DNA of 24,322 nt from a virus. The first letter of the stretch is position 1; each line of letters starts with the position of its first letter. The DNA is taken from IMG/VR virus record IMGVR_UViG_3300006919_000426, positions 1-24,322 of that record, one strand, 5' to 3'. The notes beneath the pieces were generated by a model. The model ran no database searches. It saw only the letters and a program-made list of their open reading frames with translations, and was not told the origin of the DNA. Shown here one piece after another: positions 1,568 to 23,699 of this stretch. The position numbers and the translations under genes were made by a program.

Positions 1568-1867
1568 ATGGACCCCAATATCAGGGTGACTGGCGACGGC
1601 GAGCATATGCGCTACGAATGGCAGGACAAGATCTGGATATGCCGAGACGCTGATGTTCATCCGATAATCGACATGGCGCCCGACAGCGTCGAGGTCATCG
1701 GCTTTGTCGTTTTGAACCACGACACCGGCGAGGGCGCGTTTGTGGAGGCGCGGGACTTGCGCGGCGTGACGGATGCAGATGCCCTGCAAGACGCCGGCGG
1801 AGACATCGAGCATTGGCGCAAGCGCGCATTCCACCGAGACTTTACGAATGGAGGCCACGATGACTGA
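1568..1867 (+). CDS. Hypothetical protein, 99 aa
   Basis: An acidic 99-aa protein starting one base after the upstream stop region, with AAGGAGAG just before the ATG. It contains GDGEHMRYEWQDKIWICR near the N-terminus and a run of beta-type residues (VEVIGFVVLNHDTG). I do not recognise it. Its last codons overlap the start of the LexA-like gene by eight bases. Confidence 0.6.
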   Translation: MDPNIRVTGDGEHMRYEWQDKIWICRDADVHPIIDMAPDSVEVIGFVVLNHDTGEGAFVEARDLRGVTDADALQDAGGDIEHWRKRAFHRDFTNGGHDD

Positions 1868-2063
1868 GCGCCAGCGCACCGCCTTGGACTTCATAGAGGC
1901 ATACATCGCCGAGAACCGCTATAGTCCGTCTTACCAGGAGATCGCCGATCACATGGGGTTGGCCTCAGTGGGGAACGTCCACCGCCTCGTCCACGCGCTG
2001 CGGAAAAGGGGCTTCATCCGGTTCAACGACGGCTTGGCGCGGGGGATTGAGTTGGTCGAGTGA
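1860..2063 (+). CDS. Stand-alone LexA-type DNA-binding domain
   Basis: The 67-aa product is almost a textbook copy of the LexA N-terminal winged helix: MTERQRTALDFIEAYIAENR, then SPSYQEIADHMGLASVGNVH (helix-turn-helix at about residues 22-41) and a wing around GFIRFNDGLARGIEL. LexA is normally about 200-240 aa, with a C-terminal Ser/Lys autoprotease that also dimerises; here the gene ends after the DNA-binding domain, so no cleavable repressor domain exists. I used the ATG at 1860, which follows GGAGG; an ATG at 1773 in this frame lies inside the upstream gene. It is the last + strand gene before the convergent junction. It could bind host LexA sites or a phage operator without being cleaved in the SOS response (inference). 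Confidence 0.88.
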   Translation: MTERQRTALDFIEAYIAENRYSPSYQEIADHMGLASVGNVHRLVHALRKRGFIRFNDGLARGIELVE

Positions 2064-5161: not shown

Positions 5162-7050
5162 TCATGTTGAGGCCGTCACTATTCCAGTGTCGCCCAGGTC
5201 GGCGTCCCAGAGAATGTCCTCTTCGGACGTGCTCATCGTGCTGGACCAATCAACATCGGCTGCGCTAAGATCAGGAACGCCGGGCGAGGCCACGGCGGTC
5301 TCTGCGGTGCCGCTCAGCGCGATGTTCATCTCCGATGCGCTGAGCCGCCACGCCACATTGAGGCTCTTGTTTATGCCGGGGGTCAACTCAGCGGTGGCGG
5401 AGACGCTGACAGAGGACGCGGCATTGACCACGGTGAGCGTGACGGTCCCGGTCTTCGCGCCATCGGTGTCGAGCGTGATGGTAATCCGATTGTTGGCGTC
5501 GGAGCGCCAGTCGAAGATGGTTTCCTGAGATGCGGCCCCTTCGTCGGCGTAGGTGATCACCGCCTTATGCGACCCCGACATGCCGGAGGCGCTGTACGGC
5601 GCATCGACAGCGTCGGTTGTCCGCGACTCGGCTGCTCTCGCCACAGTCGCGCCAGATGTGGGGATGTAGCTGGAGGGGGTGGAGCCATCTTCGAACTGAG
5701 CACCGAAGATGAGAATTGAAGACGTGCCGTCAAGATCCACGGTGATGTCCCCGTCAGCATCAGCCAGGTAGATCCCCACCGCCCCCGAAGTGTCCGCGGC
5801 GTCCGTGGTGAACGTGATCGAGCAGCGATACCAGCCGCCGCCAAAGTCCTCGACCCTACCAGTCAGCCCTGCATCTTCTGTGCCGACAGACCCCGTGGAC
5901 AAGTCGAAGTAGACGCTGCCGGTCGCTGGCGTGGTAAAGTTTATCGCCCGGAGAGCAGCCCATGAAAGCTGGTCGGCCTTGAGAAATGCAGAGAAAGTGT
6001 AAGCAGTCGTAGTCGAAACGGTGAATGTATTATTGGACACCCCCGCGAACCCCGTCCCCGTTGCCCCGCTATCGACAAGCGTTACCGCTGAAGTCTGCCC
6101 ATCCGGGCCGGTCGCATCGACTGCCAGCGTCCCGGCGTTTTGCTTCGACCATGTCGCGTCGGTGAAGTCTTCCGAATATGTCAACAGGTTCGTCCGCGCC
6201 TCGCTCTCCAACAGCAGGCCGCTCTTGACGTAGTTGCTGCCGTCGTATGTGTACGCCTGACGACGAGGCTTGTAAGCGGCGGTGGATGTTGTTTCGACGT
6301 ATGTACCGGGGCGACTGGGATTGTCGGCCATGCCACCGAGGCTTGATTGGAAATAGTGAACGCCCCAGAAATAAGCCCCGGATGTCCCGTCGCCCGCGAA
6401 TGTGTCATGACCAGTCGTGGTTTCTGACCTGCTGCCGTTGTTCGAGAAGTTAATGTCGATCTCGGTCAGAGAGTCATAATCATATTCGACCCTGACAATA
6501 TACCAGCCGTCCGAAGCCTCTGTGCTGGTCCCTGTGACGCTTGTCGCCGTGCTGCTCGACCCTGATTCATAACTGACAGCGCCATCGGACAATTGGACGA
6601 AGACATCTTCCCAGTTATTGCTTCCAACGTAGAGCCTGACGAAAACATAATAGCCGGCTGCCGCGTTCTCCTTGACCCAGAAGGCCAGCGTCGCCTTGGG
6701 CAAAAAGCTGCCGGAAATGCTAGGGGCTACTTTGTGACTCACATCCACCACCGAGGGGACAACCAGATCGGCACTGGTGTCGCCGTCCGGGCTTGTCGTT
6801 GCGTTAGATGTGACCGTGACGTTGGTTCCGGTCCATGACCCGGACGAGAGATCTTCACTCTGCAAGAGCAGGTTATGGGCGGCCCATTTCAAGCTTCCAT
6901 CGCTGTCCACCATAGTCCTGAGGGATTCCCCCGTGTGGGTGAACAGGTCATCGAATGTCGATGTGATTTCGGATGCGCTATAATACTCCGTCGCCGCATC
7001 GAAGTCGGCGACCAACTTAGGCAATGATTCACCAATGGCGTAGGCGGCCA
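5162..7050 (-). repeat. Adhesin module, copy 1 (fused to tail tip protein)
   Basis: This C-terminal segment of the tail tip gene is homologous to the whole gene at 16206-18005 and in the same orientation. Matching protein blocks are SLPKLVADFDAATEYY, LFTHTGESLRTMVDSDG, LLLESEARTNLL, and the last 40 residues ending WDADLGDTGI. DNA identity is patchy but includes exact runs of 21 bases (5189-5209 with 16233-16253) and 25 bases (6186-6210 with 17122-17146). Confidence 0.85.
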
Positions 7051-8542
7051 AGGCGCTTGGGGCAAATACAAAGCTATCGATCTCTCTCAAGATCATGGCG
7101 ATGTTGATATCCATTTCGTTGGTGAAGATCATCTTCCAGTCCACCACCTCGAACACCTTTTCCGTCCACCCGGCGTAGGCGTTCGTCAGCTTGATCGTGT
7201 CGCCCACCCTGACCAGCAGGGCGCGCAGGCCGAATTGCCCGCTGACCGTGATCTGCCGGCAGTTCCGCTCAAGGAAGATGGTCGCGATGCGCCGGGCCAT
7301 CACCTCGGTATCAGTGAAGATCAGCGGCAGGTCGGTGAACGCCTCCGCCCCGTTGTCCTCGGTGACATAGGTCGCCCCCACAATCGGCTCATAGTCGGCC
7401 TCGGCATAGTCTGTATCGGCCCCGCGATAGACGCCGGTCACGCCGTTGAAGTTGTCACGGCGGGATTGCCTCGTGCTGATCTTGAGATTCCCGCGCAGGT
7501 CATCCTCGGTGAATGTGTAAACCGGCGTGATGTACTCCGCCGCTTGCATCCCCCACTTGCCATTAGCGTACCAGAACGTGCCGCCCATCGAGGACAGCAG
7601 GTTCCGCAAGATATCCTCCGGGCGACTGTCCAGCAAGATCGCTCCGTTGCATGTAAACCGACTCCCGCCGTCTGTCGTTTCATCGCAGACATTTGCAGCC
7701 GCTATAACCAGATCGTCATCTATTTCGTCGGCGGTCTGCGCCAGGCCATAACCTGCCGTAAGATAGTCGCGAAGGACCAGCGCCGAATTGCTGCTCCACG
7801 ATGTTGTCCCGTCGCGCGGATCATAGATCTTCTTGCCGCGGATCTTGGCTGTTACATTCGGAACGCCGTTTGCAAAGGCCGTCGCGTCGTAGTCAAATCG
7901 GATGTAGATATACGCCACGCCACGCGCGCGGTGAGCGGCAGTCCATTCGCTGACCTCGCTCACAAGATCCGCGTCAGCGCCCTGCCCGTCCCCGCCAGTG
8001 TGCAACTTGATCCGCGCCACCCCATTCCATCGAGACGGAGCAGTCACGTTACCGCTTGCATCAATCGTCAATTCGTCGTCGTCAAAATAGATCGCTTGGA
8101 AGCTGTCGATCTCATGGCCCGCGACCGCGATGACCATGTGATAATACTCGTTCACCTCCCCGCCCTTGTCGGTCAGCGTCTGATAGAAGATCACGCCACC
8201 CACGCGGGTCTCGCCATAGACGACGGTGTGGGGCAGGGCCGGCCCCAGTTCGTTGATCGTATAGCCGCCAGCAACGCCGCGCCCCTTGGACATGAGGGCA
8301 TTCATCGCGAAGCCCAGCGCGGCGCGCACGGCGAAGGATGCGAAGACGGCAGGTGCGCCGAGCAGCGTGAACCCGAACGCGCTTATGGAATAGGTCGCGA
8401 TGCCAGCAATCGACCCCACCGAGGATGCCGTCGCCACCGCGGCAACGGACAGCGTGATCGGGTCCGCCTGCGCCTTCTCCGGGAAGTGGGTAAACATCGT
8501 CGTGCCGAGCAGGAACGCGGCGAGGGGACGGCGCAATCTCAT
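5162..8542 (-). CDS. Tail tip (J-like host specificity) protein with C-terminal adhesin module
   Basis: A 1126-aa protein in two parts. Residues 1 to about 500 are a tip/host-specificity protein of the lambda J/GTA gp15-like type: a hydrophobic N-terminal region, then ALPHTVVYGETRVGGVIFYQ, RGVAYIYIRFDYD, RPEDILRNLLSSMGGTFWYA and FGLRALLVRVGDTIKL. From about residue 500 (SLPKLVADFDAATEYY) to the end is a ~620-aa beta-rich adhesin region of the kind often labelled head-spike or LamG-like, with LLLESEARTNLLTYSEDF as a hallmark. That region is paralogous to the 599-aa protein at 16206-18005. The first 26 residues look like a Sec signal peptide ending AQA, although tail proteins are not normally exported. 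The gene overlaps the DUF6950 gene by ATGA. Confidence 0.85.
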   Translation of the reverse strand: MRLRRPLAAFLLGTTMFTHFPEKAQADPITLSVAAVATASSVGSIAGIATYSISAFGFTLLGAPAVFASFAVRAALGFAMNALMSKGRGVAGGYTINELGPALPHTVVYGETRVGGVIFYQTLTDKGGEVNEYYHMVIAVAGHEIDSFQAIYFDDDELTIDASGNVTAPSRWNGVARIKLHTGGDGQGADADLVSEVSEWTAAHRARGVAYIYIRFDYDATAFANGVPNVTAKIRGKKIYDPRDGTTSWSSNSALVLRDYLTAGYGLAQTADEIDDDLVIAAANVCDETTDGGSRFTCNGAILLDSRPEDILRNLLSSMGGTFWYANGKWGMQAAEYITPVYTFTEDDLRGNLKISTRQSRRDNFNGVTGVYRGADTDYAEADYEPIVGATYVTEDNGAEAFTDLPLIFTDTEVMARRIATIFLERNCRQITVSGQFGLRALLVRVGDTIKLTNAYAGWTEKVFEVVDWKMIFTNEMDINIAMILREIDSFVFAPSALAAYAIGESLPKLVADFDAATEYYSASEITSTFDDLFTHTGESLRTMVDSDGSLKWAAHNLLLQSEDLSSGSWTGTNVTVTSNATTSPDGDTSADLVVPSVVDVSHKVAPSISGSFLPKATLAFWVKENAAAGYYVFVRLYVGSNNWEDVFVQLSDGAVSYESGSSSTATSVTGTSTEASDGWYIVRVEYDYDSLTEIDINFSNNGSRSETTTGHDTFAGDGTSGAYFWGVHYFQSSLGGMADNPSRPGTYVETTSTAAYKPRRQAYTYDGSNYVKSGLLLESEARTNLLTYSEDFTDATWSKQNAGTLAVDATGPDGQTSAVTLVDSGATGTGFAGVSNNTFTVSTTTAYTFSAFLKADQLSWAALRAINFTTPATGSVYFDLSTGSVGTEDAGLTGRVEDFGGGWYRCSITFTTDAADTSGAVGIYLADADGDITVDLDGTSSILIFGAQFEDGSTPSSYIPTSGATVARAAESRTTDAVDAPYSASGMSGSHKAVITYADEGAASQETIFDWRSDANNRITITLDTDGAKTGTVTLTVVNAASSVSVSATAELTPGINKSLNVAWRLSASEMNIALSGTAETAVASPGVPDLSAADVDWSSTMSTSEEDILWDADLGDTGIVTAST

Positions 8543-12388: not shown

Positions 12389-12738
12389 TTTGGGTCAGTC
12401 CCCCCGGCTTCCGCATCGTCCCCATCCGGCGCACCGTCCATCAGGATGGATATCAGCGTATTGACCACCGTCATGACGACATCGGCCCCCGCGCTTTCGC
12501 CAGCCTTCACCCCGTCCATGATGGCGCCATGAACCTCGGCAGGCGTCGCGTGACCCCCGGCGAAGGTGATGATTGCCGCATAGGCGCGAGACAGCTTGTA
12601 AAACTTCGGCTTGTCGCCCATCGCCGCCAGTTCGGTGATGGTCACGATGTCCTCAAGTTCCTCCCCCAGAGCGAAAGCCTGTTCCTCGCGGATTACGTAG
12701 CTTTTGCCCTTCCACTCAAGTTCGATGCGCTGGGCCAT
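12337..12738 (-). CDS. Tail assembly chaperone (G-like)
   Basis: A 133-aa protein, starting MAQRIELEWKGKSYVI at the ATG at 12738, which overlaps the stop of the tail tube gene (TAATG). It lies between the tube and tape measure genes, the standard place of the lambda G/GT chaperone pair, and it resembles the GTA gp10 type in length and in its FALGEELEDIV and PKFYKLSRAYAAIIT segments. It keeps the tape measure soluble and helps start tube assembly. The acidic, low-complexity C-terminus (DGAPDGDDAEAGGTDPN) holds the frameshift site. Confidence 0.82.
   Translation of the reverse strand: MAQRIELEWKGKSYVIREEQAFALGEELEDIVTITELAAMGDKPKFYKLSRAYAAIITFAGGHATPAEVHGAIMDGVKAGESAGADVVMTVVNTLISILMDGAPDGDDAEAGGTDPNRDAPSSVTAMSGQSAA
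12388..12394 (-). other. Programmed -1 frameshift slippery site CCCAAAC
   Basis: On the - strand the heptamer reads C CCA AAC in the zero frame of the chaperone ORF (codons 116 and 117, Pro-Asn), a perfect X XXY YYZ heptamer. A TGA in the -1 frame lies immediately before it, so this is essentially the earliest position at which a -1 slip can enter the downstream frame. The zero-frame stop is 12337-12339, so the allowed slip window is about 55 bases. Confidence 0.82.
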
Positions 12739-13133
12739 TACACAGCCGTGTTGTAGGTCCACGCACCGGACGACTGGAGCGTGGCGGTGAAGGTCACAGC
12801 GCCGTCATGGGCGCCGGTCTCATCATAGCTGGCGAGGAAGAAGTTGCCCGAGATGTCGCCGCCGTCCGCGAAGTCCAGCGTGATGTCGGTCAGCAGAAGC
12901 GCCGACTGGGTGCTGGTCAGCGCGGCGTCGCGCATGACCTTGTCGTCCCAGATGCCGCTGACGTTCATATCCAGCTTACGGTTGCCGGCGAAGTCCGCCA
13001 GTTCGCGATAGCCGCCCGACGCGATGTCGGAGATGTCGACGGGGGAATTGTCGATGCTGATGCCGTTTTCCTGGGCGCCGGCGATGGCCGTTCCGCCCTT
13101 CTTGATCAGCAGCGAGCGTCCTGTATCTGCCAT
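12738..13133 (-). CDS. Major tail (tube) protein
   Basis: A 131-aa protein of the TP901-1/GTA gp9 tail tube family: LLIKKGGTAIAGAQENGISI, DISDIASGGYRELADFAG, KLDMNVSGIWDDKVM and a C-terminal HDGAVTFTATLQSSGAWTYN. The family forms stacked hexameric rings that make the tail tube. An AGGAAAGG ribosome site precedes the ATG at 13133. A 96-base gap upstream holds a promoter/operator-like element (13169-13222), so the tail genes from here on may be expressed as a separate unit. Confidence 0.88.
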   Translation of the reverse strand: MADTGRSLLIKKGGTAIAGAQENGISIDNSPVDISDIASGGYRELADFAGNRKLDMNVSGIWDDKVMRDAALTSTQSALLLTDITLDFADGGDISGNFFLASYDETGAHDGAVTFTATLQSSGAWTYNTAV

Positions 13134-13168
13134 GGTTCGAGGCCCTTTCCTGAGTGCGCCACATGCAC

Positions 13169-13222
13169 GTGCATCCTAGCGGGTTTTGCACCCGAGGAAA
13201 AGAATTTTCATGTCAGGCAACT
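13169..13222 (-). promoter_or_regulatory. 54-bp promoter/operator-like element, copy 2
   Basis: Read on the - strand it starts AGTTGCCT, has the dyad GAAAA-TTC-TTTTC, then TTTTCC, a 17-base spacer and TAGGAT followed by GCAC. It matches the element at 21367-21420 at 45 of 54 positions with no gaps. The TTTTCC-N17-TAGGAT spacing fits a sigma70-type promoter with a possible activator or repressor site over the -35 region. It would give a ~30-base leader in front of the tail tube gene. Confidence 0.68.
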
Positions 13223-13229
13223 TGAGACG

Positions 13230-13649
13230 CTACCGCAGGCCGTAAACCACCACGCGGTACAGCATCAGCGCGCGCTTGGTGTGGCCGTCCACATCGGGCG
13301 TCACGGTCACGCTCTCGCACGTCGTCATGACGTGTTCGCAGTCGTCAATGTTCAGCTTGGTATGGTGCAACAGCGCGTGGATGCGATCCGCGATCTGCTC
13401 CACTTCAAGATAGTTGTTCGACCGAGACCATGCGTCAATCTGCATGGAAAGCTGCCCGCCGAAGTTCGTCTTGCTGTCCCAAGGCGAGGTGACGTTGCGC
13501 CCGAATGTGACATAGGGAAACGCCGTGGCGTCGCCTGCATCCGTCGGCTGCGCCTTGTCCGCGTGAATGCCGCCGGTCGCCAGCGCGGCCAGCGCGGCAT
13601 CGCCGCTCAACTTGGTGTAAACCGCCTGATGAATGTTGTGCTGTCTCAT
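13230..13649 (-). CDS. Tail terminator / completion protein (DUF3168)
   Basis: A 139-aa protein of the DUF3168 family: HNIHQAVYTKLSGDAALAAL, FPYVTFGRNVTSPWDSKT, QIDAWSRSNNYLEVEQIADR and a C-terminal MLYRVVVYGLR. The family includes the tail terminator that caps the upper end of the tube and joins it to the head. Start and upstream stop overlap by ATGA. It is the last gene before the gap with the promoter-like element, so it ends the neck block. Confidence 0.88.
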   Translation of the reverse strand: MRQHNIHQAVYTKLSGDAALAALATGGIHADKAQPTDAGDATAFPYVTFGRNVTSPWDSKTNFGGQLSMQIDAWSRSNNYLEVEQIADRIHALLHHTKLNIDDCEHVMTTCESVTVTPDVDGHTKRALMLYRVVVYGLR

Positions 13650-14116
13650 CGGATCGCCTTCTTTATCGCGTCCTCAATCCACCCGACGAAACGCGGGCGG
13701 ATCTTCTCGATGGCCGGGCGCCATGCCGGGCGCTCCTTTATCCGGCCATCCCGCGAACCGAACTCCAGGATGAAGCCGTAGAAGTGTCGCCCGTTCTTGG
13801 TCTTCGTAGTGTTCTCGACCTCGACGGCCAGTTCCCCCGGTACGCGGTTGTAAACCGTGCCGCGCACAAGGTCGCCGCTATCCGTCATCGGCGCTTCGCC
13901 TGGTGCGGATGCGCGGCTGGCCCCGGCCCTGCCCTTACCGGAACGCGGCTCACCCGTCGCCGGGCCGCGCTGGTATCGCTTGATGATGTCGCCCCGCAGC
14001 GTCAGCCCGGTCTTGTCCAGCGCCTTCTCGATCTCGCGCTCCATCTCCGGCGTCAGCTCCTTCAGCGCGCGCTCAAGTTCAGGCCCGCCCTCCAGCCTCA
14101 ACTCGGTGCGGCTCAC
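13646..14116 (-). CDS. HK97 gp10-like neck/tail protein
   Basis: A 156-aa protein with the HK97-gp10 hallmarks: a helical N-terminus (GPELERALKELTPEMEREIE), ASAPGEAPMTDSGDL in the middle and FILEFGSRDGRIKERPAWRP near the end. The family acts at the head-tail joint or in tail completion. The start is GTG at 14116, overlapping the upstream stop as GTGA, and the end overlaps the DUF3168 gene by ATGA, so the neck genes are translationally coupled. Confidence 0.9.
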   Translation of the reverse strand: MSRTELRLEGGPELERALKELTPEMEREIEKALDKTGLTLRGDIIKRYQRGPATGEPRSGKGRAGASRASAPGEAPMTDSGDLVRGTVYNRVPGELAVEVENTTKTKNGRHFYGFILEFGSRDGRIKERPAWRPAIEKIRPRFVGWIEDAIKKAIR

Positions 14117-14460
14117 GTCGCCACCCCGCGCGTGGCCGTGACCACCATCCAGCGATCTGCGAACTCCACGTTGTCAATATGCGTGATGTTGTAGGCGATG
14201 GATCGCATGACGATCCGGTCACTCTCCAGCAGCCCCGACCAGTAACGCATCGTGAATTTCCACGTCGCCACCGCCTCCGTCCTCTCGCTGGCCCATCGCT
14301 CCGACCCGCCAGACGCCTTGACGCCCGCCCTTGTCGGCGACCCGGAAGGCGCGGCCCATGTCTCGGTGTAGCCGCCCGCGCCGTCAGAGACCTTGGTGGG
14401 GCGCTGGATGCTGATCGGCTCCCGCAGCATCCCGGCGTTGATGTCGCAGCACTTGACCAT
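14113..14460 (-). CDS. Phage head-tail adaptor (H_T_join family)
   Basis: I used the ATG at 14460, which overlaps the connector gene stop as TGATG; the frame is open further upstream only as antisense-like basic sequence. The 115-aa product shows the head-tail joining family pattern: LREPISIQRPTKVSDGAGGY, ETWA near residue 35, a middle strand WKFTMRYWSGLLESDRIV and ITHIDNVEFADRWMVVTATR. The family forms the stopper ring below the connector in HK97/SPP1-type necks. Confidence 0.9.
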   Translation of the reverse strand: MVKCCDINAGMLREPISIQRPTKVSDGAGGYTETWAAPSGSPTRAGVKASGGSERWASERTEAVATWKFTMRYWSGLLESDRIVMRSIAYNITHIDNVEFADRWMVVTATRGVAT

Positions 14461-15140
14461 CAGAGCCGCACCACGCGATATTGCTGGAGAATGTGACGGG
14501 CGCCAGACCCGGTGAAGATATCCTCCGGCCCCTCGCAGTCGCCCCGATGCGTGATCAGATACGCCGCGATGTTCCTGATCGCCCGACGTAGCGGGGCAGG
14601 CACGTCCGCGGCGCTGGCGCCATATCCCGCGACATAGACGATCTCGATGGCGTTTGTCGGGCGCAGCGCCACCGGCCACGTTGATCCTGACTGCAGGGCA
14701 AGGCGACCGGGAGTGGAGGCGGTGTCGGTGTCGAACACATTAGCAACAGTAACAGCAGTGGAGTTGCTCCCCTCATCATAGGTCGTCACGCTGGTGATTG
14801 ATGATAGCGGCCAGCGAGGAATGACCACGCTGCGGCTGCCGGGCGCGTGGAGTTCTCGGATATGGCCGTCGCGCGTCCCGCTCCACCACTGATCCCGATC
14901 ACCGCCGGGCCAATTGTCAAAGGTCACCTTCCACGTCGTGTTGATCAGCGAGCAGCCCAGATAATCCTCGACCATCTCGCGCGCCTCGGTGATCGCGTCC
15001 ACGGCCAGGCTGTCTTCTGCGTCGTCGCTGATCCTGGCTTGCAGCTTCACGTCATGGAGCGTGACAGGCTCCAGGGCGGGCGCAGTGACAACCACGTTGG
15101 CGCGGTGCTGGAAGCGGTCTTCTGGCGGGTTCAGGCTCAT
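14460..15140 (-). CDS. Head-tail connector (phiE125 gp8 / gp6-like)
   Basis: A 226-aa protein typical of the phiE125 gp8 family: PALEPVTLHDVKLQARI, DAITEAREMVEDYLGCSLI, TTWKVTFDNWPGG, then IPRWPLSSITSVTTYD and VPAPLRRAIRNIAAYLITHR. The helical part resembles HK97 gp6, the ring that docks under the portal. Start overlaps the upstream stop (ATGA), and the end overlaps the adaptor gene. Confidence 0.9.
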   Translation of the reverse strand: MSLNPPEDRFQHRANVVVTAPALEPVTLHDVKLQARISDDAEDSLAVDAITEAREMVEDYLGCSLINTTWKVTFDNWPGGDRDQWWSGTRDGHIRELHAPGSRSVVIPRWPLSSITSVTTYDEGSNSTAVTVANVFDTDTASTPGRLALQSGSTWPVALRPTNAIEIVYVAGYGASAADVPAPLRRAIRNIAAYLITHRGDCEGPEDIFTGSGARHILQQYRVVRL

Positions 15141-15463
15141 GCCAAATCATCCTCGATGATGACGAGGTTGTATCCGCTCGTCGGGAATGTGCCGACCGTC
15201 GCGTCGGAATAGGTCACTTCCCATTCGTAATTGTACGCGCCCACAGTCGCAGTGTCGCCGGCCTGCCATGTGTATTTGACGATCCCGCTGGTCGCCGTGA
15301 CGATGGCGCCCGCTGCGTCAATCGATTCCTCGCCAGTGCGCCGGTCGAACATGTGGAAGCGGATCGTCGCCCCGGTCACGTCCACCGCGTTCCCGTCAGC
15401 GTCGGTCAGCGTGTTTTGGATGATCGGGCTGGTGTCGCCCTGCTTGACCGTGACAGTCGTCAT
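15137..15463 (-). CDS. BppU/Ig-like small virion protein
   Basis: I chose the ATG at 15463, overlapping the upstream stop as ATGA. The 108-aa product has the fold signature of BppU N-terminal or Ig-like phage proteins: KQGDTSPIIQNTLTDADGNA, VDVTGATIRFHMF, GIVKYTWQAGDTATVGAYNY and a C-terminal TFPTSGYNLVIIEDD. In this class the domain attaches fibres or decorations to the particle. Here it lies between the fibre-associated genes and the connector, so an attachment point for the fibre is plausible but unproven. Confidence 0.72.
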   Translation of the reverse strand: MTTVTVKQGDTSPIIQNTLTDADGNAVDVTGATIRFHMFDRRTGEESIDAAGAIVTATSGIVKYTWQAGDTATVGAYNYEWEVTYSDATVGTFPTSGYNLVIIEDDLA

Positions 15464-15669
15464 TTGCCGGCCTTCGTTTCGCGAGGACGCCGCGCCTTGT
15501 TCTCTGGCGCCGGTCCCTTCTTCACCATGCGTGATGCAGCCTTGTCGGCCAGCGCCCATTCGGCAATCTGCCCGGTGACGATCTCCCCAAAGGGGATCGT
15601 CTCGATGGTTGATCCGCGCGGCGCGCAGCGATAGCCGTCCTTCGCCGTGATCTTCGCCGTGACAGTCAT
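15460..15669 (-). CDS. Hypothetical small protein, 69 aa
   Basis: Starts MTVTAKITAKDGYRCAPRGS at the ATG at 15669, with AAGGAG six bases upstream. The N-terminal half (TIETIPFGEIVTGQIAEWAL) looks ordered, while the last 25 residues are Lys/Arg/Pro-rich and likely flexible. I know similar proteins only as unnamed neighbours of head-tail connector genes. Function unknown. Confidence 0.65.
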   Translation of the reverse strand: MTVTAKITAKDGYRCAPRGSTIETIPFGEIVTGQIAEWALADKAASRMVKKGPAPENKARRPRETKAGK

Positions 15670-15679
15670 CGCGATCTCC

Positions 15680-16156
15680 TTAGCCTACATTCCCGCCGAG
15701 CCACTCATGGCCAGGAACGTCCCATTCGGCAATCTTGGCCTGCAAATCAGCATAGCGGAACAGCCGAACGCCGTCCAATTCGTAATAGCTGACCCCGCTA
15801 TCCGTACCGGGCGCACCGTTGTTCTTAACGTAGCGGGAGAACTTGGAATGCGCCCACTGCTCCGCAGCGTCGGGGTTGGCCTCGTCAGGGACCAGAACGT
15901 CATCGCCAAAGAAGCTGCTATGGATGCGGCAGAGAGCCACGAAGCCGGGCAGGAATGTCGGCGGGGTGATCTCGGCCCCCTCTCCATCGTAAGTCCCCTT
16001 GGCCGTCATCAGCTTGCCCGAGCCAGCCCACCACGAATACTCGAAGCCCTCGCGCGTGGTGTATCCCCCGTCGCCGCCACTGACCATCATATTGTTGGTG
16101 ATGGCGAAGGTGTGGAAGGTGGCCTTGTCGTTGGCCCATAGCACTAGGTCAATCAT
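15680..16156 (-). CDS. Hypothetical protein, 158 aa, next to fibre gene
   Basis: Starts MIDLVLWANDKATFHTFAI, then TTREGFEYSWWAGSGKLMTA and a C-terminal FRYADLQAKIAEWDVPGHEW. Rich in aromatic residues, no signal or membrane segment. It follows the fibre gene through an 18-codon micro-ORF and has no strong ribosome site of its own, so its translation is probably coupled. It may be a fibre partner or assembly factor by position; family not recognised beyond similar unnamed proteins in alphaproteobacterial phages. Confidence 0.65.
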   Translation of the reverse strand: MIDLVLWANDKATFHTFAITNNMMVSGGDGGYTTREGFEYSWWAGSGKLMTAKGTYDGEGAEITPPTFLPGFVALCRIHSSFFGDDVLVPDEANPDAAEQWAHSKFSRYVKNNGAPGTDSGVSYYELDGVRLFRYADLQAKIAEWDVPGHEWLGGNVG

Positions 16157-16209
16157 GCTGGTTGTCTTTCAGCAGCGACAAGGATCAGGGGGATCGCCAG
16201 CCACCTCAT
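16153..16209 (-). CDS. Micro-ORF, 18 aa, hydrophobic
   Basis: The ORF encodes MRWLAIPLILVAAERQPA. Its ATG overlaps the fibre stop (ATGA) and its TGA overlaps the next ATG (ATGA). A strong GAGGAGG lies seven bases before its ATG, inside the end of the fibre gene, which is better than the ribosome site of the 158-aa gene itself. It could be a coupling leader or a tiny membrane peptide. Confidence 0.5.
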   Translation of the reverse strand: MRWLAIPLILVAAERQPA

Positions 16210-17940
16210 GACGTGGCCTCCTCTATGCCAGCGTCGCCCAGGTCGGCGTCCCACATGAGGAACTGTTCGATGGTTCCCATGAAATCGTAACCAAGATCAA
16301 GATCGGTTGCGGACAGATCGGGAAGGCTGGTGGGTGTCGTGTCTTCCGTCGCGGCTGTGCCATCCTTGGCGACGTTGATTGCGCCTGCCGTGTTACGCGA
16401 CGCGATGTTGAACGCTACATTTATGCCAGGGCTGTACTCGGCTCCGGCGACGACCGTATCAAGCGGCGCGGTCGCCGCCTTCTGGTTGGCGTTCACCTCA
16501 CCCGTAGCCGCCGCATCAGTGTCCAGATCAAGAGAGAGGTAATTGCTCCCGTCGGCGCGCCACCGCATCCACGTCTGCTGCGCCCCTGCGCCCTCATCCG
16601 CATAAGTCGTCGTCCCCTTCATCGCGATGCTCATGTTCGTCGCGTCGTAGGGCAGATTAGCAGCAGGGACCGTGAGGGTCTCAGCAGCGCGGGTGACGGT
16701 GGAACCGCTGGTGGGAATCGGCGAGGATATCTTGCCGGAGGTCTGCTCAAGCTGGTTGATCTGTACAGCGATCTCATCGCCGCTCGTCACGATGCGGAAC
16801 CCGATCTGAGGGTTCGTCACAGTCTGCGCGTCGGTGCAAACTTGCGTATATACGCTGGTGTTGATGTCGCTGGTGACCGCGTCCCACGTCGTGCCACCAT
16901 CGACCGTCACCTCGATAACCCCGGTCCCGGTCACGCGCTTGACCAGCGCGCCGAATACGTGCGGATTAGAGGCGGCGGTAACAGTCAACAGGACGGTGCT
17001 GTTGGCCCCGGTCGCGGTCAGGCGGTTGGCGCTGTTCGCGATTCCGTCCGCGCCTGTCTGATCCTTTGTGACGGTTAGCGTGGACGTGGTCCAGCCACTC
17101 ATGTCATCGGAGGAAGCGACAAGGTTCGTCCGCGCCTCGCTCTCCAGAAAGATGCCTTTGTTCGCCCACGTCGAGCCGTTGTAGATGTGGTGGCCGCGGC
17201 GCGGGAGGTGGACGGCGGCGGAGGTCGTCGGGACGTAGGAACTCAAGGCAGCCAACGTGCGGGCGTCAGAAGGCACGTTAACCATGCCGCCGAGGTCATT
17301 GCGGAGGCAGTGCATGTTGACGACGTAAATGCCATCGGTCCCGTTTGCGGTGCTTGTCGTCGATGCATCGCCGTCAACCGGCGACAGACAGGTATACTGA
17401 TTGAACCCAGTGCTGACCTCCGCCGTGCAGAGATACCAGCCGTCCCCGAGGTCGGTCATCGTGCCGGTCCAGTTGGCCGTCTCTGTACCCTGGACCCCTG
17501 TGGATAGGTTGAACCAGACGCCGCCGCCAGTCGTGTCTTCCTGAAGGATGCAGAGCCAGTCCTTACCCGCAGCCTTCGCGACGACAGAATGTTTCTTTTT
17601 GACAGCGGGGAGGCTCCCCTGATAAATACATACATCGATATGTGTCGATGTAGGATAAATCAAATCAGCGGACGCGCCGTCAGGCCCAGTTGCTTGATCC
17701 ACCACAACAGTGACGAGGTACTTCGGCCAGCTATTTGCGTCGTCTGAGTATGGGATCAGATTATGCGGCGCCCACGTCAGCGCCCCGTCGCTGTCCACCA
17801 TCGTCCTGAGGGACGCCCCCGTATGCGTGAACAGCCCGTCAAACGTGGTCGCGGACCCCGCCTTGCGGTAGTACTCCGTGGCCCCGTCGAAGTCGGCCAC
17901 GAGTTTGGGGCTGGAGCCAGCGACGGCGTAGGCGTCAGCG
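16206..17940 (-). repeat. Adhesin module, copy 2 (free protein)
   Basis: The second copy of the module described at 5162-7050. Both copies are on the same strand, about 11 kb apart, with exact DNA matches of 21 and 25 bases. The middle third has diverged much more than the N-terminal 60 residues, the ESEARTNL block and the C-terminal 40 residues. Confidence 0.85.
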
Positions 17941-18005
17941 TCAGCGTCCGCCCCTTGCGTAAAGGGCGTCCGCATTCCGAAGATCGGAGATTCAAGGCCG
18001 CGCAT
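16206..18005 (-). CDS. Head-region fibre / adhesin protein, 599 aa
   Basis: A beta-rich protein whose sequence from about residue 26 (AYAVAGSSPKLVADFDGATE) to the end is paralogous to the C-terminal ~620 residues of the tail tip protein. Shared hallmarks are LFTHTGASLRTMVDSDGA, IFLESEARTNLV and a terminal LPDLSATDLDLG with WDADLGDAGI. Proteins of this type are often named phage head-spike fibre or LamG-like adhesins and are thought to bind surface glycans. The gene sits among head genes, between small capsid-proximal proteins and the connector, so it may decorate the head or neck. It starts at an ATG overlapping the upstream stop (TGATG). Confidence 0.75.
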   Translation of the reverse strand: MRGLESPIFGMRTPFTQGADADADAYAVAGSSPKLVADFDGATEYYRKAGSATTFDGLFTHTGASLRTMVDSDGALTWAPHNLIPYSDDANSWPKYLVTVVVDQATGPDGASADLIYPTSTHIDVCIYQGSLPAVKKKHSVVAKAAGKDWLCILQEDTTGGGVWFNLSTGVQGTETANWTGTMTDLGDGWYLCTAEVSTGFNQYTCLSPVDGDASTTSTANGTDGIYVVNMHCLRNDLGGMVNVPSDARTLAALSSYVPTTSAAVHLPRRGHHIYNGSTWANKGIFLESEARTNLVASSDDMSGWTTSTLTVTKDQTGADGIANSANRLTATGANSTVLLTVTAASNPHVFGALVKRVTGTGVIEVTVDGGTTWDAVTSDINTSVYTQVCTDAQTVTNPQIGFRIVTSGDEIAVQINQLEQTSGKISSPIPTSGSTVTRAAETLTVPAANLPYDATNMSIAMKGTTTYADEGAGAQQTWMRWRADGSNYLSLDLDTDAAATGEVNANQKAATAPLDTVVAGAEYSPGINVAFNIASRNTAGAINVAKDGTAATEDTTPTSLPDLSATDLDLGYDFMGTIEQFLMWDADLGDAGIEEATS

Positions 18006-18286
18006 CAGCCATGCCCGACGCTAACGGTCGCCACCCCATCGCAGTATGCATAGACGCGGACAGCGGCAATGCCGGGGAACATGTCCGACAGGCTCTTGTT
18101 AAGTTCGCCCTGGCCCGACCAGTAGACAATCGCCCCGGTCGTATCAGTGGGCGCCACTGCGCCGGTCGTCCCCTTGATGTAGACCGCATCATTCGCGCGG
18201 ACCTGAAACGTGATCGAGGTCACGTCCGCATCAGTAACCTGCGTCCACGTCTGCGCCGGAACGCTGATGTCTGTCTGCTGGGCCAT
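18005..18286 (-). CDS. Hypothetical small virion-type protein, 93 aa
   Basis: A Thr/Val-rich, beta-type protein: SVPAQTWTQVTDADVTSITF, then GAIVYWSGQGELNKSL and a C-terminal VRVYAYCDGVATVSVGHG. Coupled on both sides (TAATG with the gene upstream, TGATG with the fibre gene). It may be a small structural or attachment protein; no family assigned. Confidence 0.68.
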   Translation of the reverse strand: MAQQTDISVPAQTWTQVTDADVTSITFQVRANDAVYIKGTTGAVAPTDTTGAIVYWSGQGELNKSLSDMFPGIAAVRVYAYCDGVATVSVGHG

Positions 18287-18801
18287 TACGCGCTCCTGCC
18301 AACGATTGCGATCTGGTAGGTGTTCGACGCCCCCGCCGAATTGGTGATGCGGAGAATGTCGCCGGTCCCCGCGGTGACGGTGCCGATGCCAGCCGCGTCA
18401 GGCGACATCAACATGAACATGCCGCCGGGCTTGATCGGGCCGACAGTCGGGGTCGTGCCGCCGAGGAAGCCGACGAAGGGGTTGGAGCCGCCGCCGATGG
18501 TCAGGTCGGTCGTGTTGGCGGTCCCGTCCTTCTGCTTGTTGATGATGAGGATGCCAACCAGCTCGGCGAAGGTCAGCGTCGTGCCGAACACGTCGGACAG
18601 GACGCCCGCCAGGTCGATGTCGTCATCGGTCGCAGTGGCCACGGTCCGCTCGGCGACATAGAGCAGGTCGGCGTTGCCCGCCCCGGTCCCGTCGGTCAGC
18701 TTCTGCGAGAACGCCACGTCATCAGACAGGCGGTCGGCGAAGGCGTTGGCCCCGCTCTGAATCATGTTCAGGTTGGCGGTGAATGTCGCTTGCAGGGTCA
18801 T
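18286..18801 (-). CDS. Putative virion structural protein, 171 aa
   Basis: The ATG at 18801 has AGAAAGGA seven bases upstream. The N-terminal ~80 residues are helical (LNMIQSGANAFADRLSDD) and the rest is Gly/Thr-rich beta sequence (GGGSNPFVGFLGGTTPTVGP, then KPGGMFMLMSPDAAGIGTV, DILRITNSAG). Such proteins follow capsid genes in several phages and are likely part of the particle; function not known. A hairpin with an anti-Shine-Dalgarno-like loop lies just upstream of its ribosome site. Confidence 0.7.
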   Translation of the reverse strand: MTLQATFTANLNMIQSGANAFADRLSDDVAFSQKLTDGTGAGNADLLYVAERTVATATDDDIDLAGVLSDVFGTTLTFAELVGILIINKQKDGTANTTDLTIGGGSNPFVGFLGGTTPTVGPIKPGGMFMLMSPDAAGIGTVTAGTGDILRITNSAGASNTYQIAIVGRSA

Positions 18802-18830
18802 GCGTCAGTCCTTTCTGATGGTCTCTGAAA

Positions 18831-18866
18831 GACAGCCGGGCAGAAAGGAGGAACCGCCCGGCTGTC
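18831..18866 (-). terminator. 11-bp stem hairpin between two virion genes
   Basis: Perfect inverted repeat GACAGCCGGGC / GCCCGGCTGTC around a 14-base loop, GGTTCCTCCTTTCT on the - strand, 15 bases after a stop codon. The stem is followed by TTTC only, so termination would be partial at best. The loop contains TCCTTTCT, complementary to the AGAAAGGA ribosome site at 18809-18816, so it may instead control translation of the next gene. Confidence 0.55.
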
Positions 18867-18880
18867 CTCAGAACTCACCG

Positions 18881-19327
18881 CTAGGTCCGGGCCACGGCGG
18901 TTCCGATCAGGGTGGGCGGCGCGGTGTGCGGGTCCTCGAGGATCGCGTACACGCTCAGGTCCGCGTCGGTGCCGGTGGTGCCGACCGCCGAGACGCCAAC
19001 ATAGCGATCCGTCCCGAGGTAGCCGAAGCTGCCCAGCACGGTGTTGTCGTCGCCATCGGTGACTTCCGTCAGCGTCAGCGTGTCGTTGACCGCATCAGCC
19101 GCCACAACAGAGGCCGCAGCCGCCGCCGTGGTGTCCGCCGAGTCCTGGAAGGTCACGGTGTAGCCGCTCGCCGTGCCGGCGTCGGTGATCGTGTTCGAGA
19201 CCACAACCAGCGTCACCTTGTTGAAGCCCTTCACGTCCGCATAGCTGGAGACCGCCGGGGTCGTGCCGGAAAGAGCGAGGTTCCCGAGGTGAACCACCTG
19301 CTTTCCATTCAGTCCATCACAAAGCAT
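18881..19327 (-). CDS. Hypothetical capsid-proximal protein, 148 aa
   Basis: An Ala/Thr/Val-rich beta-type protein with FNKVTLVVVSNTITDAG, YTVTFQDSADTTAAAAAS and SFGYLGTDRYVGVSAVGTTG. The ATG at 19327 follows AAGGAG by eight bases. Its place directly after the major capsid gene and its composition fit a head decoration protein, but I cannot name the family with confidence. Confidence 0.72.
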   Translation of the reverse strand: MLCDGLNGKQVVHLGNLALSGTTPAVSSYADVKGFNKVTLVVVSNTITDAGTASGYTVTFQDSADTTAAAAASVVAADAVNDTLTLTEVTDGDDNTVLGSFGYLGTDRYVGVSAVGTTGTDADLSVYAILEDPHTAPPTLIGTAVART

Positions 19328-19350
19328 ATCTCATGCTCCTTGTGTTGAGC

Positions 19351-19370
19351 GGGAGGGCCGAAGCCCCCCC
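19351..19370 (-). terminator. TTCG-loop hairpin after the major capsid gene
   Basis: On the - strand an 8-bp G/C stem (one G-T pair) closes a TTCG tetraloop, ten bases after the capsid stop. No T-tract follows, so it is not a standard terminator; it may stabilise the 3' end of the capsid mRNA or act as a weak attenuator, which would keep capsid expression above that of later genes. Confidence 0.5.
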
Positions 19371-19379
19371 GGCAGATGG

Positions 19380-20702
19380 TTACGCCTTGAAGTTGATGAC
19401 CTTCAGGGCTTCGTAGTCGATCACGTCGCCGCCAACCCGCTTCGTGCTGTAAAAATGCACGTAGGGCTTGTTGGAATACGGATCGCGCAGGGTGCGGATG
19501 CCGACCCGATCAACGATCTGGTAGGCCGCCCGCATGTCGCCGACAGCGATGGACAGCGAACCCGTCGCTGGGTCAGGCATGTCCTCGAACGAGGCGACCG
19601 GATAGCCGAGCAGGGTGGCCGGCTGACCAGCCGCGATGCCCGGCGTCCAGATGTAGGCGCCGTCGCTGTCCTTCAGCTTGCGCGTCAACGCCGCCGTGGC
19701 TCGGTTCATGAACCAGACCGCGTTGGCCCGGTAGACCGACTTGAGGCCATAGAGCGCGGTTATCAGCACATCGCCGCCAGCCGGAGCCGCTGCGAAGCCC
19801 CCGTTGACGCCGGTGTCGAACTGCTCGATGGCGCCCTGCTCGTAGGTGCCGGCAGAAGCCCAGTCGGCGTAATCCAGGAAGCCGCGAGGCTTGCCGACGC
19901 CGGTGCCGGTGCAGAACGCCGCATTCTCCGCGCGGGCAAACTTGTCGGCCACCTTGTCGGCGAGCCAGCTTTCGACGTTGACCATCCCGTCATCCAGGAT
20001 GCCCTGCGTCGCCGCCGGGTTAGCGTACATTTCGTGAACCGGGATGCTCCACTTGCCGAGCGTCGGCGTGTCGGTCTCGGACCGGGCGCCCTTCTCGCTG
20101 ACCCAGCCATAGGCCGCTTCGTCATTGTCGTGGATGCCCTCCAGCGAGGACGTGGAGATCGCCTGAATGGAGGCATAGGCCCGCATCGGGGAGGTCTCGT
20201 AGACACGCTGAACGGTGCGGCCCGACATGTCCGGGGTCACGACGTAGCCGCCGTCCGGGTTGGTGCCGGCGGACAGGGACTTCATCTCGTTCAGATGACG
20301 GACCTCGCCCGGCTCCAGAACCTCGGTGCCGGCGCGGACCCACTTGACGAACACGTCACGATAGCTGTCCATCTGATCCGGGGTCCACTCGCCGCCGCGC
20401 CCGCCCGCCTCGAAGCGATGCCAGTCGGCAGCCTTCTTGGTCAGGTCGATCTGCTGGCCGTCGGCGGTCTGTTCGAACCGGGACAGGCCGCGCAGCTTCA
20501 GCTCAAACGCGTCAAGCATTTGCTGCTGCTTGGTCATGTCGGCGTTGATCTTCTCGACCACCTCGACAGTGATGGGATCTTCGCCGCGCGTCTCAAGCTG
20601 CTTCAGGCGCTCGTCGTTCTTGGTCTTGAATTCCTCGAAGCCGCCCTGAAGGCCTTCCATCGCCTTCGCGACATCCACGAGGGTGGGGTCATGTTCGCTC
20701 AT
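19380..20702 (-). CDS. HK97-type major capsid protein
   Basis: A 440-aa protein with the two-part layout of the family: an N-terminal coiled-coil scaffold-like delta region (about residues 1-115, e.g. EGLQGGFEEFKTKNDERLKQ) and the HK97 fold after it. Diagnostic blocks are SAGTNPDGGYVVTPDM, GWVSEKGARSETDTPTLGK, AFCTGTGVGKPRGFL and LLGYPVASFEDMPD, ending YEALKVINFKA. The delta region would be cut off by the protease encoded just upstream. Start overlaps the protease stop (ATGA), which fits coordinated synthesis. Whether it cross-links, as in HK97, cannot be decided here. Confidence 0.95.
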   Translation of the reverse strand: MSEHDPTLVDVAKAMEGLQGGFEEFKTKNDERLKQLETRGEDPITVEVVEKINADMTKQQQMLDAFELKLRGLSRFEQTADGQQIDLTKKAADWHRFEAGGRGGEWTPDQMDSYRDVFVKWVRAGTEVLEPGEVRHLNEMKSLSAGTNPDGGYVVTPDMSGRTVQRVYETSPMRAYASIQAISTSSLEGIHDNDEAAYGWVSEKGARSETDTPTLGKWSIPVHEMYANPAATQGILDDGMVNVESWLADKVADKFARAENAAFCTGTGVGKPRGFLDYADWASAGTYEQGAIEQFDTGVNGGFAAAPAGGDVLITALYGLKSVYRANAVWFMNRATAALTRKLKDSDGAYIWTPGIAAGQPATLLGYPVASFEDMPDPATGSLSIAVGDMRAAYQIVDRVGIRTLRDPYSNKPYVHFYSTKRVGGDVIDYEALKVINFKA

Positions 20703-21337
20703 CGGATGATCTCCGTTGCGTGGTTGATGTTTGCAAGAAGCCTCGCGACCACTGCGTCATCCGCGCTTCTACCCTCTCGGCAGTCCCGCAGACCTGTGAA
20801 ACCACGAGCCGCGATGGCCTTGGCTTCGGCACGAGAAAACCCTGCATCCCGCAGGGCAGTCTCAAACTCTCTGATCGTGTCCGACTTCGCAGCCGTGACA
20901 TTCGCTTTCGGATTGCTGGGGAACGTCACCGCGGAGATTTCCCAGAGATCAACCTCGGTCAGCCGGCGCACCGATCCATTCGCCTCCGGCTCCGCGCTGA
21001 TGGTGCGGAACCCGATGGACAGGCCGGAGATTGCCCCCGCCTTGTACAGCGCCATCGCCTCGGCACCGCGCCGCACGTCCTTCAGGACGCGCCCCTTCAC
21101 GCGCAGGCCGTGTTCGTCCTCGGCCAGTTCGTCCCATATACCAATCGGCTCGTTGGGGTCATGCTGCCAGAGCATCTTCGGCTTACGAACACTGAGGCTC
21201 TTGGCGAACGCGCCCGGCGCGATGATGTCGGAATCGCTGTCCACATTCCCGAAGACTGCGCCATACCCCTCGAAGGTGCCGTCTTGATCCGGCTCCTTCT
21301 TCAGGTCCAGGTCCATCTTGAAAGTGAGTGTTTCCAT
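20699..21337 (-). CDS. HK97 family prohead maturation protease
   Basis: A 212-aa S78-family protease: GTFEGYGAVFGNVDSDSDII near the N-terminus, the catalytic His in MLWQHDP (His59), the catalytic Ser in AISGLSIGF (Ser107) and WEISAVTFPSNP with the likely third residue. It trims the capsid delta domain during head maturation. I chose the ATG at 21337 rather than the in-frame GTG at 21355, because the promoter-like element upstream (-10 box at 21371-21376) would place the transcript start only about nine bases before that GTG. It has about 30 bases of leader and overlaps the capsid gene by ATGA. Confidence 0.93.
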   Translation of the reverse strand: METLTFKMDLDLKKEPDQDGTFEGYGAVFGNVDSDSDIIAPGAFAKSLSVRKPKMLWQHDPNEPIGIWDELAEDEHGLRVKGRVLKDVRRGAEAMALYKAGAISGLSIGFRTISAEPEANGSVRRLTEVDLWEISAVTFPSNPKANVTAAKSDTIREFETALRDAGFSRAEAKAIAARGFTGLRDCREGRSADDAVVARLLANINHATEIIR

Positions 21338-21366
21338 TTCGCCCGCTGCCGCCACTGCGATTACGG

Positions 21367-21420
21367 GTGCATCCTAACCGCATTTTCCCCCGAGGAAAAG
21401 AATTTTCCTGCGAGGCAACT
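21367..21420 (-). promoter_or_regulatory. 54-bp promoter/operator-like element, copy 1
   Basis: On the - strand: AGTTGCCT, then a perfect 17-bp dyad AGGAAAA-TTC-TTTTCCT, then a 17-base spacer from TTTTCC to TAGGAT, followed by GCAC. It fills the 92-base gap before the prohead protease and repeats at 13169-13222 (45 of 54 identical). It is a likely promoter with an overlapping regulator site for the protease-capsid block. Confidence 0.7.
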
Positions 21421-21429
21421 ATCCGGCGG

Positions 21430-22194
21430 TCAGTCCTTGACGATATGGGAGATGCTGCAACGGCAATTAATGATGTTGCCCGCGCTGCCATTCGGGTCGC
21501 CGGGATACATCAGCCGCTCGCCGCCCACATCGAATGGCTCATCAAGTTCGCGGACCTGCTCATCAATAGAACTGTGCGACGTGCGGGTGCGGTCATCCTC
21601 AACCGCCACCCACTCCTTCTGGAGGTCCAGCCCGGTCTCCTTCGCCGCGCCATGCGCTCCGTAGTTGGCCGCGCCATGCACCTCGGTGCGGGCGATCAGC
21701 ATCCCCCGCGTCTTGCTGATCCTGGGGACCGCCCTTGCAATCGCCTCTGCAATGGCCGGGAAGCTGTCCGCGTCCTGCCGCGTCCTGTTGATCGCGGTCA
21801 CGATGTCCTCGCGCGTCGTCTCCGACACCTTGGTAATGCGCCGGCGGATCATCTCCAGCGAGATGTATTCCTCCGACAGCCGCAGGAAGTAGTCGAGGAA
21901 GTCCTTGCGCTCCAGATCACGCCCCATCGCCTTGCCCTGGCCGAGGATGCGCGAGCCAAACGCCTGCACGGTGAATGCCACCATGTCGCGATAGATCGTC
22001 AGCAGCCGTTGCTCATGGCCTTCAGGGATGGACGGGATGGCGCCAGACCGCGCGTAGCTGGCGAGCATCGCCACAGACGCCGCGCGGATCTCCGCCGTGA
22101 ACTTGCGGCCATACCTGCGCTCGATGATCAGCATCAGGCGGGACTGCCGCCTCGCCTCCCGATGGCGATCAGCGTCAAGGAGTCGTCTTGCCAT
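21430..22194 (-). CDS. Head morphogenesis protein (SPP1 gp7 / Mu gpF type)
   Basis: A 254-aa protein with the Phage_Mu_F domain in its C-terminal 110 residues: MLIARTEVHGAANYGAHGAA, LQKEWVAVEDDRTRTSH and GDPNGSAGNIINCRCSIS, where the Asp-Arg-Thr-Arg, His and Cys-Arg-Cys residues are conserved family positions. Family members are minor head proteins bound near the portal and take part in head assembly or DNA ejection. The N-terminal half is helical. The gene overlaps the portal gene by 20 bases and is followed by the gap with the promoter-like element. Confidence 0.9.
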   Translation of the reverse strand: MARRLLDADRHREARRQSRLMLIIERRYGRKFTAEIRAASVAMLASYARSGAIPSIPEGHEQRLLTIYRDMVAFTVQAFGSRILGQGKAMGRDLERKDFLDYFLRLSEEYISLEMIRRRITKVSETTREDIVTAINRTRQDADSFPAIAEAIARAVPRISKTRGMLIARTEVHGAANYGAHGAAKETGLDLQKEWVAVEDDRTRTSHSSIDEQVRELDEPFDVGGERLMYPGDPNGSAGNIINCRCSISHIVKD

Positions 22195-23521: not shown

Positions 23522-23597
23522 TGCGCCCTCGTTACGGATTGCCGCGCCATGCTACCCGCTTCCGGCGCGGAAATCAATCAAACACACTGAACGAGAA
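23522..23597 (-). promoter_or_regulatory. Possible portal promoter region
   Basis: Between the hairpin and the portal ATG the - strand reads TGATTT, 16 bases, then TAGCAT, a weak sigma70-like pair about 25 bases before the start. A promoter here would make sense after a terminator, but the boxes are poor and the 54-bp element found before the protease and tail tube genes is not present. Confidence 0.25.
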
Positions 23598-23628
23598 ACG
23601 CCGCCCGAGACGGATGGCCGGGCGGCGT
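23598..23628 (-). terminator. Hairpin between large terminase and portal genes
   Basis: Perfect 10-bp inverted repeat ACGCCGCCCG / CGGGCGGCGT with an 11-base loop, about 70 bases after the terminase stop. On the - strand the stem is followed by TTCTCGTT, a weak T-rich tract, while on the + strand no T-tract follows, so a - strand terminator is the best reading. It would separate terminase from portal expression. Confidence 0.62.
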
Positions 23629-23699
23629 CATTGGTAAGGGCGCTTGGGAAGCACCGGTGAGGGTCCACTATGCCAACCAATCATGCCCCACGCAAGCAA

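Follow-up and report, generated by a model that had tools for sequence, protein, structure and literature searches.

How the late genes are controlled has not been established for the majority of uncultured phages, and a pair of closely similar sequences in one environmental viral record raises the question of whether two blocks of structural genes, one for the head and one for the tail, may be started together by a single regulator. The record (IMG/VR IMGVR_UViG_3300006919_000426) is a 24-kb fragment, so that further copies of the sequence, as well as the regulator, may be unseen; the whole stretch of 24,322 nucleotides that was analyzed is referred to here as the window. The reading developed below, which on balance appears probable, is that the two sequences are late promoters sharing one phage-specific operator and one regulator.

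A matched pair before the head and tail genes

Two minus-strand copies of a 54-bp element had been noted in the initial annotation, at 13169–13222 and 21367–21420, identical at 45 of 54 positions without gaps, and both the coordinates and the strand proved to be exact. The gap coordinates likewise bear out that each copy, on the same strand, lies in a true intergenic gap. The tail copy is found in the 96-nt gap 13134–13229, between the gene for the tail terminator (13230–13649; phrog_176, E=1e-18) and that for the major tail (tube) protein (12738–13133; phrog_1407, E=2e-14, and PF06199), which is the first gene downstream. The head copy is found in the 74-nt gap 21356–21429, between the gene for a head morphogenesis protein (21430–22194; phrog_2468, E=7e-46) and that for the head maturation protease (20699–21355; phrog_80, E=1e-62), again the first gene downstream, beyond which lies the major capsid protein gene (19380–20702; phrog_10, E=6e-69). 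All five genes are encoded on the minus strand.

The similarity of this pair is far outside chance. Its local score is 31.5, as compared with a maximum of 13.5 in 150 dinucleotide shuffles across all 28 gap pairs and with 8.0 for the second-best real gap pair in the window, and outside the 54 bp the flanking sequences are identical only at the random level (13/60 and 11/60). A third copy is absent from the 24-kb record, in which the best other match agrees at 23 of the 45 conserved positions. The dyad contained in the element, GAAAANNNTTTTC, is also absent from 2.45 kb of the neighboring early region (contig G409) and from 1.3 kb past the right end (contig G410).

The gap upstream of the portal gene (23522–23699, minus strand) contains no copy of the element. 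By eye, a terminator-like hairpin in this gap is followed by a promoter-like pair, TTGATT-N17-TAGCAT, with a TTCCG-CGC-CGGAA dyad, and the gap is a candidate for a third late promoter, one without the element. Elsewhere in the window, the tail-region genes at 5162–8542 and 16206–18005 share stretches of about 70% identity (6866–7046 with 17754–17934, and 5162–5283 with 16206–16330) which gives the appearance of a copied end domain. The phage putatively infects aquatic bacteria. A scan of bacterial genomes with the tail-tube alignment returned one weak match, in Asticcacaulis; in the class to which Asticcacaulis belongs, 44 of 385 genomes gave matches, which probably represent gene transfer agents.

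Anatomy of the predicted promoters

Both copies present the same order of parts: AGTTGCCT comes first, followed by the dyad and TTTTCCTCGGG, after which a variable spacer leads to TAGGATGCAC. The upstream block AGTTGCCT has the same letters in both (13215–13222 and 21413–21420, minus strand). The dyad, a putative operator, reads GAAAA-TTC-TTTTC with 5-bp arms in the tail copy (13197–13209, minus strand) and AGGAAAA-TTC-TTTTCCT in the head copy (21393–21409, minus strand). The latter had been described as a perfect 17-bp palindrome, a description that does not hold, as AGGAAAATTCTTTTCCT at these positions is a 7-bp inverted repeat around 3 bp with a non-palindromic TTC center (14/16). Allowing up to three mismatches, only two dyad sites occur in the record, and both are inside the elements.

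The proposal that the element contains a sigma70-type promoter stands in part. The promoter-like pair TTTTCC-N17-TAGGAT (13173–13201 and 21371–21399, minus strand) has the expected N17 spacing and is matched exactly nowhere else in the record, but its hexamers are weak (3/6 for TTTTCC and 4/6 for TAGGAT) and are missed by a consensus scan. If the promoter is real, the center of the dyad falls at about −37 from the predicted start, overlapping the −35 box in a position that would suit activation and repression alike. ATG 21337 is the most likely start of the protease, in preference to GTG 21355, and the end of TAGGAT then lies about 33 and 39 nt ahead of the start codons of the two genes. The variable bases do fall mostly in the spacer, as had been stated, but their clustering alone is not significant (longest run 19, P = 0.13).

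Near relatives provide a further view of these hexamers. By tail-tube protein, the closest are L114 (77% identical), L101 (72%), L105 (69%), and L102/L103 (68–69%). With the same N17 spacing, L101 reads TTTGCA-N17-TAGGATGCAAAC (10/12 identical to the hexamers of the window), L105 reads TTTTCA-N17-TACTAT before the protease (9/12), and L102 reads TTTCCA-N17-TACAAT twice (8/12 each time). The support that they lend to a promoter is moderate because a blind test of spacer length across all relatives gives only a slight peak, at 17–18. The two elements are likely to be a pair of promoters.

A quite different role for the elements, as signals in RNA or in DNA processing (a terminator, an mRNA leader, or a recombination or packaging site), would accord with the intergenic location of both copies and with the 7-bp hairpin that the 21367 copy can form. 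Folding of the two copies is little better than that of shuffles, however (z −0.75 and −1.6), which gives no support to a terminator or leader structure and on which such RNA structure was rejected. In addition, a U tract is absent after the element, the predicted structure is unlike between the copies, and both are sense-oriented just upstream of genes for many-copy products, so that a role of this kind is extremely improbable.

Within the phage species, the element is retained. Contigs of the same phage (L003, L004, L005, L083, L094, and L096) are 97–99.9% identical; among them L005, which comes from another sample and is 99.7% identical over 12.8 kb, keeps both copies, with a single spacer base changed in the protease copy. 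In the tail gap of the most divergent, L096, 1 of 54 element positions is changed as compared with 5 of the 42 remaining gap bases, a suggestive but small difference. A search of all viral contigs for the dyad plus TAGGAT, which had been proposed as a check, recovered these same-phage contigs and elsewhere only scattered matches that are probably due to chance. The element sequence is confined to one phage species, so that conservation across divergent phages lends it no support.

Late-gene slots in related phages

Although the sequence of the element is unconserved in related phages, its arrangement is not, as relatives fill the same slots. This was examined by comparing, within each phage, the gap upstream of the protease with the gap upstream of the tail tube, using 80 relatives with a 58–62% identical capsid protein (three same-phage contigs apart) and 80 with a related tail-tube protein. 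Matched pairs of their own occur in the window, L014, L050, L124, L065, and L102, and the sequences in the relatives are unrelated to those of the window. Upstream of both protease and tail tube, L014 has TTTGCAAGTTTGCAA..GGTATAA..TTTGCAAA, L050/L051 has TGTTATGTTATAACGTAAC, L065 has CTTTGCAACTTT, and L102/L103 has CAATTACAATNCAANCA; in L124/G008, GTTATGTGATAATATAAC is upstream of the protease and a similar site follows directly after the tail terminator. When scores were compared with those of 600 cross-phage pairs (25 independent groups), the own pairs of the window, L014, and L050 were exceeded by none, that of L124 by 5, and those of L065 and L102 by 16. Most of the 25 groups have no matched pair, in some cases owing to a short tail-tube gap; in many relatives and isolates the tail-tube gene is preceded by no more than about 10–40 nt. 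A fuller run that adds the portal gap also takes in loci fetched by motif, so that shared motif classes inflate its null and the proportions obtained are not readable as frequencies.

Several relatives carry more than two sites. In G004, the contig of L050, the 18-bp GTTATGTTATAACGTAAC or a close variant is present four times, always intergenic and on the late strand, preceding the portal, protease, and tail-tube genes and a tail-region gene whose 824-aa product has no PHROGs family. G008 has one site before the portal, one before the protease, and one immediately following the tail terminator, and its tail region contains two further, weaker matches. L309 has three identical sites, before the portal, protease, and tail tube (products checked on L309 and its relatives L302 and L273). 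These multisite arrangements look like a late regulon, which makes the same reading of the two sites in the window the most economical.

The relatives also bear on a simpler explanation of the pair, that it consists of two ordinary host sigma70 promoters, one of which was copied to a second place, the shared dyad being inherited and served by no dedicated regulator. Duplication of a 54-bp block would likewise yield 45/54 identity, and the nonsignificant longest-run test of the mismatches and the restriction of the sequence to one species are both compatible with it. Yet the hexamers are weak for an unaided promoter, and the same slots in several relatives hold matched pairs of unrelated sequence. 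As identical 18-bp cores are found inside different flanks, repeated accidental copying explains the data poorly, and this explanation is considered unlikely.

Two further features of the relatives were observed by eye. In several late promoters (L050, L340, L273, and L124), a CTAGCGC-like block recurs some 11 bases ahead of the palindrome, where it replaces the usual −35 box. A stretch resembling GCTGTNAAGCG..CCCTTAGAAGGA recurs ahead of the ribosome site in the leaders of different phages (L014 4910–5000, L008 before both protease and tail tube, L139, L140, and L142).

One palindrome of the relatives, the 18-bp GTTAYGTTATAACRTAAC, is strongly enriched in environmental phages, being present in at least 120 viral stretches as compared with 6 for a composition-matched palindrome. 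It is often seen before structural genes (L309, L302, L050 on G004, L063, L058, L047, and many loci among L231–L348), and among the genes that follow it in other phages are head protease-like, major head protein-like, and portal-like ones as well as several without a PHROGs match. At 15–16 of 18 positions it is identical to the Zur box of the Rhodobacter group, GATATGTTATAACATATC, and its putative binder would be Zur or a phage protein; the literature provided nothing specific on Zur boxes in phages. Such a match in one operator class of the relatives, together with the absence of FUR-family genes from 11 phage records of relatives, raises the alternative that a host global regulator, rather than a phage protein, binds the elements. 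In the window gaps, however, the likeness to a palindrome of the GATATGTTATAACATATC type is 10/18 at best, no other host box tested fits the dyad of the window, and the operator varies between phages, all of which leave binding by a host regulator very doubtful.

The putative regulator and comparable systems

Under the favored reading of shared operator and shared regulator, the two elements would serve as late-gene promoters in a siphophage that has the common HK97/GTA-like order of structural genes, and each promoter would bear the same phage-specific operator, a dyad over the weak −35 box of TTTTCC-N17-TAGGAT. Both dyads would be bound by one DNA-binding regulator, probably encoded by the phage, which would start the protease-capsid block and the tail-tube/tape-measure block simultaneously and so supply additional transcripts for the most abundantly required proteins. 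Weighing against this reading are the weak hexamers, the restriction of the sequence to one species, the many groups that have no matched pair, and the portal gap devoid of a copy. The observed part of this explanation is the matched pair, its positions, and the pairs that relatives have of their own in the same slots. These relatives strengthen the proposal of the initial annotation that one regulator serves head and tail blocks alike, but a dedicated regulator is only putative; its sharing by both elements is the simplest account of the pair and seems reasonably probable. That it is an activator rather than a repressor is less sure, this preference being based on the weakness of the hexamers.

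Among the window proteins scanned, the only one found to be DNA-binding is a LexA-type winged-helix protein of 67 aa (1860–2063, plus strand; PF01726, E=8e-17; transcriptional repressor phrog_362, E=5e-13), in which the LexA DNA-binding domain is present without a protease domain. Its gene is the last of the early block, which runs rightward and contains ERF and NinB. This location is like that of late regulators in lambda-type phages, and the protein is a positional candidate for the regulator. It shares the LexA DNA-binding domain with LexA-type phage repressors (phrog_362), but remains no more than a candidate, as the known LexA boxes, GTTC-N7-GTTC and CTGT-N8-ACAG, are absent from both gaps of the window. 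Neither the lambda CII site (TTGC-N6-TTGC around −35) nor the CtrA operator is present.

The same protein would also serve an explanation with the opposite sign, in which the regulon is unchanged but the dyads are operators of a prophage or LexA-type repressor that silences the late promoters until induction. Consistent with this, operator classes, like repressor specificities, vary between phages, and a site of the GTTATGTTATAACGTAAC class covers the −10 box, a repressor-like position. Besides the missing LexA boxes, repression is disfavored in that neither an integrase nor a full repressor is seen in the fragment and that the dyad of the window is at −35, where activators bind too; it is regarded as somewhat unlikely.

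Phage P2 offers a precedent for control by a common activator, as its four late promoters (PP, PO, PV, and PF) share the operator TGT-N12-ACA, to which Ogr binds (PMC3931495). As in the window, the late operons that share a single short operator include those for both head and tail, and in P2 one phage activator binds it (PMC3931495); an operator common to several late operons is found at 2 sites in the window and at 3 or 4 in relatives. P2 differs in being a myophage with another gene order. TGT-N12-ACA has no match in either gap of the window on either strand, and no gene for an Ogr-type zinc-finger activator was found among the window proteins scanned (part of the ORFs of a fragment record), so that the window would work like the P2 system without being a member of it.

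In its structural genes, the window is like the RcGTA-type and alphaproteobacterial siphophage blocks (terminase-portal-protease-capsid-adaptor-tail tube-tape measure). A matched promoter pair was not found in the literature consulted on such blocks, where the comparative paper PMC10783043 mentions promoters once, and nothing specific was found there on late promoters of this phage type. The nearest isolates are 28–38% identical at best by tail-tube protein. Pq0 (Pseudoalteromonas), P12026 (Marinomonas), and 1N2-2 (Idiomarinaceae) share the late gene order and have tail-tube proteins about 32% identical, but unlike the window they have only 11–15 nt between tail terminator and tail tube, which leaves no room for a second element; in the isolate GJ44, just 2 nt precede the tail tube.

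A broader and quite improbable generalization is that environmental siphophages keep fixed late-promoter slots (portal, protease, tail tube, and tail gene) while swapping the operator in all of them together, the late genes of each phage thus obeying a different regulator, and that one widespread set imitates the host Zur box, tying late expression to a metal regulator of the host or else to a phage-encoded protein with like specificity. A matched operator at fixed slots provides a route to late operons, and possibly to a regulator and a link to the host, by sequence alone. The recurrence of such pairs with different sequences amounts to a natural experiment in the joint change of a regulator and the several sites that it binds.
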